This document shows positions 1-5,704 of a DNA stretch of 64,000 bases, piece by piece. Source of the stretch: a bacterium (GTDB taxonomy: Bacteria; Patescibacteriota; Dojkabacteria; GCA-002793355); NCBI GenBank assembly GCA_020853235.1, contig JADYZG010000026.1:1-64000 (forward strand). Reading direction: 5' to 3'. Within the stretch, counting starts at the first letter, position 1, and every line of letters begins with the position of its first letter. The notes below the pieces were generated by a model. It saw nothing but the letters and a program-made list of their open reading frames with translations. It ran no database searches and was not told the DNA's origin. Made by a program: the position numbers and the translations under genes.

Positions 1-61
1 AAAAATAGGGGTCTGTTTTACTTGCACAATAAGTACCTAATCTACTATAATACGAAGTAAT

Positions 62-133
62 CCAGAGGTAGCTCAATGGTAGAGCAGGAGACTGTAAATC
101 TCTTGGTTAGGGGTTCAAGTCCCTTCCTCTGGA
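62..133 (+). tRNA. tRNA-Tyr (anticodon GTA), class I with short variable loop
   Basis: Acceptor CCAGAGG/CCTCTGG (7 bp), U8A9, D-arm GCTC..GAGC, anticodon stem GGAGA/TCTCT with loop CTGTAAA, 5-nt variable loop TGGTT, T-loop TTCAAGT, discriminator A; no encoded CCA; followed by a T run. Confidence 0.93.
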
Positions 134-253
134 TTTTTTCAGTTTTTTCTCGCTCACTTGGTTGAAATGTTTTCCAACCATTTCATTTACGATCCAAAAA
201 TTAAAAATTTCCAGCAAAATAGTTATTTATACGCAGATAGTGCACTAAATTTT

Positions 254-607
254 TTACCCAGCTCTACTGCCATTCGGAACTGGCTTTTCTGGACATGCTA
301 ATACAGGGACAATACCGTCTGCAAATCCGATATCAAAAATCATGCCTTCGGATATCTCACCTGCCATTTGCTTTGGTTCTAGGTTTACAACAAACAACGC
401 TTGCTTCCCTTCTATCTCTTTAGGGTTTTCACGTTCTTTTTTGAGTCCGACGAGAATTTGCCTTTGAAACTCTCCAAAATCGACGTGGAGTTTTACCAAT
501 TTGTCTGAACCTACTATATCTGTAACGGTTATAATCGTTCCTACTCGAATATCAACTTTTTCTAGGTAATTAAACGCAATAATAGGTTTGATCTCCGTCA
601 TAAGCAA
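254..607 (-). CDS. tRNA-binding (OB-fold, MetRS C-terminal/CsaA/Trbp111-like) domain protein
   Basis: ORF 117 aa; 'VDIRVGTIITVTDIVGSDKLVKLHVDFGE...ILVGLKK...GKQALFVVNLEPKQMAGEISEGMI' is typical of the tRNA_bind family. Confidence 0.85.
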   Translation of the reverse strand: MLMTEIKPIIAFNYLEKVDIRVGTIITVTDIVGSDKLVKLHVDFGEFQRQILVGLKKERENPKEIEGKQALFVVNLEPKQMAGEISEGMIFDIGFADGIVPVLACPEKPVPNGSRAG

Positions 608-1870
608 TTATACTGCCCCACGTAACTCTCTCTCAATTTCCATGAGCCTATTATATTTGCTGACTCGTTCCCCTCGTGTTGGTCCAACTTTGACGTAAGC
701 ACTTCCTACTGCGACCGCGAGATCGGCAATGAAGTCGTCGTTTGTCTCTCCTCCACCACGATGTGAGGTAATCGTCATAATGTTGTGTTCGTTGGCGATT
801 TTACAACAGGCAATTGTTTCTGATAGTGTTCCGATTTGGTTTGGCTTGATGATGATTCCAGAGATAGCGTCAAGTTCAATCGCTTTGCGAAGTCGGTTGA
901 TGTTGGTTACGGTGAGGTCGTCGCCTATATGTTTTATTCCCTTAGCCTTCAAAATTTGATTTAACGTAACCCAGTTATCCCAATCATCTTCTGAAAGTAG
1001 GTCTTCAAGAGAAACGAAGCTGTATTTATCAAGCCATTCTTCGTAGTAATGAATCAATTCTTCGCCCGTAAATTGTCGGTTTTCTAATTTCAGTTCGTAA
1101 TTGCCGTTAAAAAACTCACTTGCAGCAGCGTCAATTGAGATGCCAAGTTCTTTTCCAGGGGTGTACCCAGCTCGTTTAATTGCTTCTGTCACGAATTCTA
1201 GCGGATCTGTATTGTTTGGTATTCCGTTTGGTGCAAAGGCACCTTCATTTCCCCCGTTAGTAGAGAGTTTGTGTTCTTTCAGTATCTTTTTTAACTGATG
1301 ATAGGTTTCGAGTGCTTTTCTGACATTTTCGGTTACACTCCCCTGCTCTTTTGCACTCACACAAAACTCCTGAAAATCTGTTGTTTCATCTGCATGTTTT
1401 CCCCCTTCGATGATAACAACCATTGGTTGAGGTAATTTCGTTAAGTCGGTTGTGAGATTGTATGTTTGAATCAAGTATTTATAGAGTGGCAGTTGTTTTG
1501 AATTTGCGACAGCACGAGCTACTGCCAATGAAACTGCAAGAATTGCATTACCTCCCAAACGAGCTTTGTTGGGAGTGCCGTCAAGTTGAATCATTGCAGT
1601 GTCGATATCGATCTGGTTTTCCGCAGGAATATCTGCAATTTTTGGATAAATTTCTGTAAGAATGTTTGCTACAGCTTTTAAGTTTCCTTGTCCGTTCCAG
1701 CGTGTAGTGTCTCCATCAACTAGCACGGTAGCTTCGTGACTTCCTGCAGAAGCTCCATACGGAACGGAGGCAATTCCAACTGCTCCCGTATCAAGAGTAA
1801 CTTTTACCTCGACAGTTGGGTAACCTCCAGATGCAAGAATTTCGTAGGCGACAATTTTTATAATTTTCAT
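608..1870 (-). CDS. eno: Enolase
   Basis: 420 aa; motifs GNEGAFAPN, SIDAAASEFF, FVSLEDLLSEDDWDNW, GDDLTVTN, IKPNQIGTLSETI, SHRGGGETNDDFIADLAVA. Confidence 0.95.
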   Translation of the reverse strand: MKIIKIVAYEILASGGYPTVEVKVTLDTGAVGIASVPYGASAGSHEATVLVDGDTTRWNGQGNLKAVANILTEIYPKIADIPAENQIDIDTAMIQLDGTPNKARLGGNAILAVSLAVARAVANSKQLPLYKYLIQTYNLTTDLTKLPQPMVVIIEGGKHADETTDFQEFCVSAKEQGSVTENVRKALETYHQLKKILKEHKLSTNGGNEGAFAPNGIPNNTDPLEFVTEAIKRAGYTPGKELGISIDAAASEFFNGNYELKLENRQFTGEELIHYYEEWLDKYSFVSLEDLLSEDDWDNWVTLNQILKAKGIKHIGDDLTVTNINRLRKAIELDAISGIIIKPNQIGTLSETIACCKIANEHNIMTITSHRGGGETNDDFIADLAVAVGSAYVKVGPTRGERVSKYNRLMEIERELRGAV

Positions 1871-3787: not shown

Positions 3788-5704
3788 TTACACGTCCAAC
3801 ATTGCGTACTTTGCGTACTGCTGAATGAACTTTTTACGTGGCGCAACCTCTGATCCCATGAGCATATCAAACAATTGATCTGCTGCAGCTGCATCGTGTA
3901 CCGAGACTTTTTTGAGGACTCGTTTGTTTACGTCCATTGTCGTTTCTTGTAATTGTTCTGGGTTCATTTCACCAAGACCTTTAAATCGCTGAACACTTTT
4001 AATTTTGTGACCAGCTGCAACCTGTTTGGCAAGGAACTTGTCTTTTTCTGGTTCACTAACGAACCAATATTTGTCTTTTCCAACTTCAACTTTAAATAAT
4101 GGTGGTTGCGCAATAAATACTCTACCATCATCGATAAGTCGGCGCATAAAACGATAAAAGAAGGTCAAAATCAAGGTGACAATGTGCGAACCGTCAACAT
4201 CAGCATCAGTCATAAGAATTACTTTTCCATAACGAAGTCTTGTCATATCCATTTGATCAGCGATTCCGCAGCCAAGTGCAGTAACAAGGTCTTTTAATCG
4301 TTCATTCGCAAGAACACGATCAACGCGGTGTTTTTCTGCATTAATTGGCTTACCTGTCAAAGAAAGGATTGCTTGGAATTCACGGTCACGTGCTTGTTTT
4401 GCAGACCCACCCGCGCTTTCACCTTCTACAACAAACAACTCGGATTTATCTTTATCTTTGGTTGAACAGTCAGCAAGTTTTCCAGGTAACGCACTAAAAG
4501 TTAACGCTCCTTTTCGAAGAATTGCGTTTCGTGCTGCCTTTGCTGCATTTCTAGCCTTTAATGAAAGAATTGCTCGAGAAATAACTTGTTTTGCATCTTG
4601 GGGATTTTCGGTAAAGAATTCAGCTAGCGCATCGGAAACAACGCTCTGCACAGCACTCTTTACTTCTGGATTATTGAGTTTAATCTTTGTCTGACCTTCG
4701 TATTGTGGGTGCCCAAGTTTGACGGAAATGATTGCGGTTAATCCCTCTCGAACATCTTCGCCTTCGAGTTTTGTTTTTTCATCAAGTAGTTTGTTTGCGA
4801 GACCATATTTATTGATTGCAGAAGTAAGCGCGGCTTTAAAACCTGCTAGGTGGGTTCCTCCTTCTGGGTTTTCAATGTTATTTGCAAATGTTCGAATTTT
4901 ATCACTCATAGAATCTGTGTAGACAAACCCAACCTCAACCAGAATATTATCTTTCTCTTTGTTCACGTAGAACGGAGTCTTCATGATTGCTGTTCCGGTT
5001 TGTTGGTTATGAACGAACGAGAGGATACCTTTCTCAAAATAATACCGTTTGACGATTGGTTTCGTACTTGACTCGTTGATAAAGGTAAACGTAATTCCTG
5101 AAGTCAAAAATCCTTGATAGTGAATTCGTGTTTCAATCGCTTTTGGGCTGTATTGTAGGTCTCCAAAAATTTCAGGGTCTGGAGTGAAAAACTGTCTTGT
5201 TCCCTGTCTGTCTTTGTATTCTGGTGATGATTTAGAGGTTAGTTCCGTTTGTGGAATACCCTGCTTAAATTCTTGCTGATACATTTTTCCATCTCTAAAA
5301 ACGGCAGTAACCATTTTGATTGAAAGTGCATTAGTACAAGACATTCCAACACCGTGTAACCCACCGGAGATTTTATACGCGCCTTTATCAAATTTTCCAC
5401 CTGCGTGAAGAACAGTCATGACTGTCTCGAGTGCACTCTTTCCAGTTTCGGGGTGAATATCAGTTGGAATGCCACGTCCATTATCCTGTACGGTAATTGA
5501 ATTGTCTTTGTGAAGGATGACCGTAATGTGCGTTGCAAAACCCGCAAGCGCTTCGTCGACTGCGTTATCAAGAACCTCGTAGAATATCTGATTCATACCA
5601 TTAATATCGGTAGATCCGATATACATGGCTGGTCGTTGTCTTACTGCCTCTAGCCCCTTAAGAACGGTAATATTGGATGCTGTATAGGTTGGTGTTTTTG
5701 TCAT
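3788..5704 (-). CDS. gyrB: DNA gyrase/topoisomerase IV subunit B
   Basis: 638 aa; YEVLDNAVDEALAG, DNGRGIPTDIHPETGKSALETVMTVLHAGGKF, GLHGVGMSC, VEGESAGGSAKQARDR, LMTDADVDGSHI. Confidence 0.95.
   Translation of the reverse strand: MTKTPTYTASNITVLKGLEAVRQRPAMYIGSTDINGMNQIFYEVLDNAVDEALAGFATHITVILHKDNSITVQDNGRGIPTDIHPETGKSALETVMTVLHAGGKFDKGAYKISGGLHGVGMSCTNALSIKMVTAVFRDGKMYQQEFKQGIPQTELTSKSSPEYKDRQGTRQFFTPDPEIFGDLQYSPKAIETRIHYQGFLTSGITFTFINESSTKPIVKRYYFEKGILSFVHNQQTGTAIMKTPFYVNKEKDNILVEVGFVYTDSMSDKIRTFANNIENPEGGTHLAGFKAALTSAINKYGLANKLLDEKTKLEGEDVREGLTAIISVKLGHPQYEGQTKIKLNNPEVKSAVQSVVSDALAEFFTENPQDAKQVISRAILSLKARNAAKAARNAILRKGALTFSALPGKLADCSTKDKDKSELFVVEGESAGGSAKQARDREFQAILSLTGKPINAEKHRVDRVLANERLKDLVTALGCGIADQMDMTRLRYGKVILMTDADVDGSHIVTLILTFFYRFMRRLIDDGRVFIAQPPLFKVEVGKDKYWFVSEPEKDKFLAKQVAAGHKIKSVQRFKGLGEMNPEQLQETTMDVNKRVLKKVSVHDAAAADQLFDMLMGSEVAPRKKFIQQYAKYAMLDV

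Follow-up and report, generated by a model that had tools for sequence, protein, structure and literature searches.

An archaeal/eukaryotic-type tyrosine tRNA and its probable synthetase partner in a Dojkabacteria genome

Introduction

Which enzyme charges a tyrosine tRNA of archaeal/eukaryotic identity type in a bacterium, and is it the only tyrosine tRNA that the cell uses? Tyrosine identity is a textbook domain-specific recognition rule, and it is because of this domain specificity that genetic-code expansion in E. coli relies so heavily on archaeal Tyr pairs. The gene considered here sits at the end of a 68.7-kb contig, the first 64 kb of which form the window that we analyzed, in a MAG of the CPR bacterial group Dojkabacteria (G000; 840 kb, 33 contigs, 95.4% complete, 6.17% estimated contamination). 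An initial annotation of the window had guessed, correctly, that the locus exemplifies something already described in CPR bacteria: Mukai, Reynolds, Crnkovic and Soll described C1-G72 tRNA-Tyr together with archaea/eukarya-type TyrRS in CPR bacteria in 2017 (Life 7:8; PMC5370408), naming Parcubacteria, Microgenomates, Dojkabacteria (WS6) and Katanobacteria and reporting both V-arm-bearing and V-arm-lacking tRNA-Tyr. The host genome is a further case, with the same C1:G72 tRNA and archaeal-type TyrRS as those CPR pairs; the available part of that article does not mention the host genus separately. A full-text search of the open literature found no later paper on archaeal Tyr identity in Dojkabacteria.

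What does the present analysis add? In the class, we find three lineages of archaeal-type TyrRS, a short tRNA-Tyr that is kept across two of them in one family, a beta domain of ~75 residues beside the KMSKS motif, a family that combines C1:G72 with a bacterial TyrRS, and one genome with both systems. The available part of the 2017 article contains no class-wide pairing table, no statement that the short arm is limited to two families, no KMSKS-side insertion, no exception of this kind and no two-system Dojkabacteria genome (PMC5370408).

The tRNA-Tyr gene

The window carries an intact tRNA-Tyr(GTA) gene of the archaeal/eukaryotic identity type (Table 1). The anticodon GTA is given by the sequence and by ARAGORN, which calls tRNA-Tyr(gta) at 61-134, and the Rfam tRNA model matches 62-133 with 72.8 bits (E 5e-14). 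Read element by element, the gene consists of CCAGAGG, TA, a D arm with a 4-bp stem (GCTC-AATGGTA-GAGC), A, an anticodon arm with a 5-bp stem (GGAGA-CTGTAAA-TCTCT), the variable loop TGGTT, a T arm with a 5-bp stem (AGGGG-TTCAAGT-CCCTT), CCTCTGG and the discriminator base A73; a CCA end is not encoded. Pairing by hand gives the acceptor stem CCAGAGG/CCTCTGG with C1:G72, and the variable loop, at 5 nt, is short and of class I type. The anticodon, loop length, C1:G72 and A73 claimed in the initial annotation are thereby borne out by the sequence, ARAGORN and Rfam, and neither of the class II features, G1:C72 and a long variable arm, is present.

Comparison within family f1, to which the window genus belongs, indicates that this structure is under selection, since all 126 of 126 cloverleaf pair cells are standard (6 distinct tRNA-Tyr from 8 genomes) and 8 of the 21 stem pairs have changed on both sides (shuffled mean 4.9, with 2 of 500 shuffles reaching 8). 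The covariation score of the same set was matched by none of 500 shuffles. The folding energy of the window sequence is lower than that of dinucleotide shuffles (z = -3.0), and the minimum-energy fold of this single sequence is not the full cloverleaf. Expression would start from a promoter that joins a TATAAT box to a plausible hexamer further upstream (Table 1), and TATAAT is kept just upstream of the gene in both of the congeners described below. The T-rich stretch that follows A73 is a possible transcription end; a terminator scan found no hairpin-type terminator after the gene.

Is there a second tyrosine tRNA? When all 43 tRNAs of the 95%-complete assembly were typed, tRNA-Tyr occurred once; of the nine long-arm (class II) tRNAs, five belong to Leu and four to Ser, and none is a tRNA-Tyr. 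The inventory also turned up a second tRNA-Trp(CCA), with A73 (C33:1648-1721; L030:1501-1574, minus strand), besides the ordinary tRNA-Trp with G73 (C16:6234-6304) and a single TrpRS of bacterial type. Six f1 relatives have one tRNA-Trp gene each called at matching-pattern sites, and the A73 copy may be a contaminant or a supernumerary tRNA.

Table 1. Positions of the features discussed (window coordinates unless a locus, L, is named)
Feature	Position	Strand	Basis or remark
Probable sigma-70-type promoter, TGCACA-17-TATAAT, 10/12 matches	23..51	+	Motif match
tRNA-Tyr(GTA), C1:G72, A73, 5-nt variable loop	62..133	+	ARAGORN, Rfam, family alignment
T-rich stretch directly after A73	134..146	+	Also in G013 and G014
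Free-standing tRNA_bind (PF01588) protein, MetG-C-terminal/CsaA kind	254..607	-	Profile match
Enolase	608..1870	-	~0.1 kb from tRNA-Tyr in closed congener G014
DNA gyrase B	3788..5704	-	Same neighbourhood in G014, 87% identity
TyrRS residues 222-314, beta insertion region directly before KMSKS	L036:3142-3420	-	AlphaFold model

The partner synthetase

The archaeal-type TyrRS that the initial annotation had predicted elsewhere in the genome was found on another contig, C31 (22 kb), as a protein of 451 residues (L036:2728-4083, minus strand), and this only TyrRS of the genome is of the archaeal/eukaryotic type. Its score with the archaeal-type model NF006330 is 318.8 bits, above the cut-off of 220, whereas with the bacterial model TIGR00234 it reaches 69.5 bits and stays below the cut-off of 113.8; a domain profile search found no S4 domain in it. 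A PF00579 search of the whole assembly returned one TrpRS of bacterial type (TIGR00233, 304.9 bits), this one TyrRS and one weak match to MetRS, and no bacterial-type TyrRS. The class II tRNA-Tyr and bacterial TyrRS that would have spoken for an ordinary Tyr system were thus sought in this genome, and neither turned up.

The nearest sequences of solved structure are eukaryotic cytosolic and archaeal TyrRS, and a Foldseek search with the AlphaFold model (mean pLDDT 93.4, pTM 0.89) likewise returned eukaryotic and archaeal TyrRS, including the archaeal TyrRS-tRNA complex 1j1u. The conserved motifs are in place, both KMSKS and the segment corresponding to the HIGH-like motif. The closest relatives of the enzyme come from Dojkabacteria (WS6) and BroJett Patescibacteria genomes.

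How does this pair compare with the systems that are best known? The tRNA-Tyr of M. jannaschii has C1:G72, A73 and a short variable loop, as does the window tRNA-Tyr, and both enzymes share a fold without an S4 domain. However, structure-aligned identity to 1j1u is 26%, the C31 enzyme being nearer to DPANN and eukaryotic TyrRS, and it has an extra beta domain as well as Gln at the position that we take to align with Arg174 of the M. jannaschii enzyme. With the bacterial pair, the host pair shares the amino acid, the anticodon and A73, whereas the G1:C72, the long variable arm and the S4 domain of the bacterial pair are all three absent.

We consider it very probable that this bacterium has switched its Tyr identity from bacterial to archaeal/eukaryotic, that the window gene is its one functional tRNA-Tyr gene and that the C31 TyrRS charges the product. 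What we observe directly is the features of the tRNA, the type of the enzyme, an assembly with no further Tyr system, the same pair in congeners and the joint occurrence of the two types across the class; from these sequence comparisons we infer expression and the charging itself. The C31 enzyme, lacking the C-terminal S4 domain, would recognize its tRNA by C1:G72, A73 and the anticodon GUA. The S4 domain of bacterial TyrRS holds the long variable arm, which would then be dispensable here and is absent in f1. The description of the two partners as a naturally orthogonal pair in the initial annotation is apt relative to ordinary bacteria but does not apply inside the cell, where this is the only Tyr system found. 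TyrRS/tRNA-Tyr pairs from bacteria are candidate orthogonal pairs.

Co-variation of tRNA and enzyme across the class

We surveyed 89 genomes of the class, gathering tRNA-Tyr genes by pattern and with ARAGORN (~15 genomes unscored) and calling a TyrRS archaeal-type when its score exceeded the NF006330 cut-off, as was the case in 26 of the 89. C1:G72 tRNA-Tyr is present in all 26 of these and in 3 of the 48 scored genomes with a bacterial-type enzyme, the other 45 having only G1:C72 tRNA-Tyr (Fisher p = 5.5e-17, genomes being counted without phylogenetic correction). The survey shows that tRNA-Tyr and TyrRS types change together across the class, with two informative exceptions, family f9 and genome G046. 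Most C1:G72 tRNA-Tyr of the class keep the long variable arm; only f1 (8 of 8 genomes, including the window's) and f11 (2 of 2) have the short loop.

Contamination and missing genes as alternatives

Could the tRNA, the TyrRS or both have entered the bin from another organism, such as a member of the DPANN? The genome is a MAG of 33 contigs with some estimated contamination, in which the tRNA is close to the end of one contig and the TyrRS is encoded on another, of 22 kb. However, the genes of the window contig are bacterial: those near the tRNA encode enolase, gyrase B, pyruvate kinase, FolD and a Mur ligase, and those further along a bacterial ValRS, SecA and a MurG-like protein. Two other Dojkabacteria of the same genus, moreover, have the same tRNA and TyrRS, each on one long contig. 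In G013, which matches BroJett019, a tRNA-Tyr identical to the window's lies ~3 kb from enolase and on the same 1.05-Mb contig as a related TyrRS. In G014, which matches the complete genome cMAG.26, a close tRNA-Tyr and an archaeal-type TyrRS are accompanied by the enolase neighbourhood, with GyrB and pyruvate kinase at 80-87% identity, and the position of enolase next to tRNA-Tyr in this closed genome anchors the tRNA to a bacterial chromosome. Both partners occur together in a single CPR bacterial genome, in the host as in these congeners. Our pattern search missed intron-bearing DPANN tRNA-Tyr genes; the one recovered through tRNA loci (AR15) is interrupted by an intron and no more than 53% identical to the window tRNA. 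Since the congeners have the same pair, the closed one with synteny as well, contamination explains the data poorly, and we regard it as exceedingly improbable.

Alternatively, the gene might be silent or accessory, with the real bacterial Tyr system missed in the unassembled 5%; the host assembly is indeed not closed. Yet no class II tRNA-Tyr or bacterial TyrRS was found in it, all eight f1 genomes, some of them single-contig, have an archaeal-type TyrRS above cut-off together with the short C1:G72 tRNA-Tyr, and the conserved TATAAT and the compensatory stem changes point to use. This explanation, too, is very improbable.

One neighbour of the gene, the tRNA_bind protein of Table 1, was considered as a functional associate, a link that is unsupported: the protein looks like a MetG C-terminal domain, and no tRNA_bind ORF was found around tRNA-Tyr in the stretch of G014 examined. 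A 115-residue tRNA_bind ORF of that closed genome is located elsewhere, away from tRNA-Tyr.

Lineages of archaeal-type TyrRS

In a tree of 99 archaeal-type TyrRS (unrooted, with SH-aLRT support only, from a sample picked by similarity to the C31 query), the host enzyme, which the initial annotation had proposed placing phylogenetically, falls in a clade made up entirely of Dojkabacteria (12 rows, support 98), inside an otherwise mostly DPANN set. Dojkabacteria use three groups of the enzyme in this tree: one unites the window genus (g1) with other Dojkabacteria and also holds DPANN, a second comprises genera g2-g5 of family f1, and a third, long-branched, comprises three f6 genomes. The TyrRS may have been acquired horizontally from a DPANN-like source, although the unrooted tree does not fix the direction of transfer. 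Because the short C1:G72 tRNA occurs throughout f1 while the TyrRS of the family belong to two lineages, the simplest reading of this one tree, taken without a species tree, is that the enzyme was exchanged within f1 while the tRNA type stayed.

An insertion before KMSKS

The TyrRS of the window genus carries an insertion of ~75 residues (~residues 230-304; ~75-85 residues) after GLQKP and before KMSKS, two motifs that in relatives are joined by a linker of ~20 residues and variable length. AlphaFold predicts eight beta strands for it with high confidence; comparison with Pfam and PDB sequence profiles gave nothing above chance, and Foldseek gave no match at E <= 0.001. The insertion is absent from several close Dojkabacteria relatives, and insertions of different sequence occupy the same site in some other Dojkabacteria and DPANN enzymes. 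An intein was considered and dropped, given the ~75-85 residues, the variable-length linker at this site in relatives and the lack of a profile match.

Additionally, the DQRK motif reads DQQK in the window genus (third residue 6 Q versus 97 R). We take this third residue to align with Arg174 of M. jannaschii TyrRS, which contacts the first base pair; with Gln in place of Arg, the first-base-pair contacts of the genus may differ from those of the studied archaeal enzyme. One can go further and propose that the genus enzyme reads the first base pair in an undescribed way, through DQQK and with the beta domain aiding acceptor-end recognition or KMSKS-loop dynamics, the short C1:G72 tRNA being a fixed platform for swapped archaeal-type TyrRS lineages (g1 versus g2-g5); we offer this as speculation and think it unlikely to hold.

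Origin of the short tRNA

Where did the short tRNA come from? Irrespective of its function, the short C1:G72 tRNA might be a class I tRNA, for example tRNA-Lys, remodelled within bacteria rather than a product of archaeal transfer or arm loss. With the acceptor stem left out, the body of the host tRNA-Tyr shows 84% identity with the host's own tRNA-Lys(UUU); the corresponding figures are 59% for one DPANN tRNA-Tyr and no more than 69% for arm-trimmed class II tRNA-Tyr of the class. However, likeness to this same tRNA-Lys drops to 0.68-0.75 in other f1 members, the comparison has one archaeal reference and 57 nt carry little signal, and G015-G018 share their acceptor stem, CCGGCGG, with the tRNA-Tyr of M. 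jannaschii. Remodelling is accordingly an origin that we entertain tentatively, as possible but somewhat doubtful. In f11, the body of the short tRNA-Tyr is closest to class II tRNA-Tyr (75%), which fits loss of the variable arm.

Exceptions and mixed genomes

The rule of Tyr identity is flipped in some families of this one bacterial class and not in others, so that the order of the steps of an identity switch becomes testable; the candidate intermediates are a flipped pair with a long arm, C1:G72 with a bacterial enzyme, and both systems in one genome. The second of these is found in family f9 (G031-G033), whose long-arm C1:G72 tRNA-Tyr (L275-L278) occur with TyrRS of bacterial type (TIGR00234 339.5 for G032 and 321 for G033, with G031 aligning with both) that have the bacterial C-terminal domain (L353, L300, L301). 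C1:G72 by itself is therefore no proof of an archaeal TyrRS, and the expectation that the identity features predict the enzyme, which held in the host genome, does not extend to this base pair alone. TyrRS that are indifferent to pair 1:72 are known from human mitochondria and the Plasmodium apicoplast (PMC9976931, PMC6310243).

Both systems are present in G046, a Dojkabacteria genome (89% complete, 1% contamination): an archaeal-type TyrRS that begins with an editing-like domain, tRNA_edit (L282:8062-9791), has a C1:G72 tRNA-Tyr just upstream, and a B3/4-fused bacterial TyrRS (L302:902-2881) is accompanied by a G1:C72 tRNA-Tyr. In the Pacebacteria genome G102, a short C1:G72 tRNA lies near an archaeal-type TyrRS, and a long-arm G1:C72 tRNA is present as well. 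The fusion of an N-terminal B3/4 domain to a bacterial TyrRS, as in G046, recurs in G032 (L300:901-3363), where the enzyme carries a tRNA_edit domain besides B3/4. Finally, G020 and G049 each have two archaeal-type TyrRS genes above cut-off, and G020 also has two C1:G72 tRNA-Tyr.
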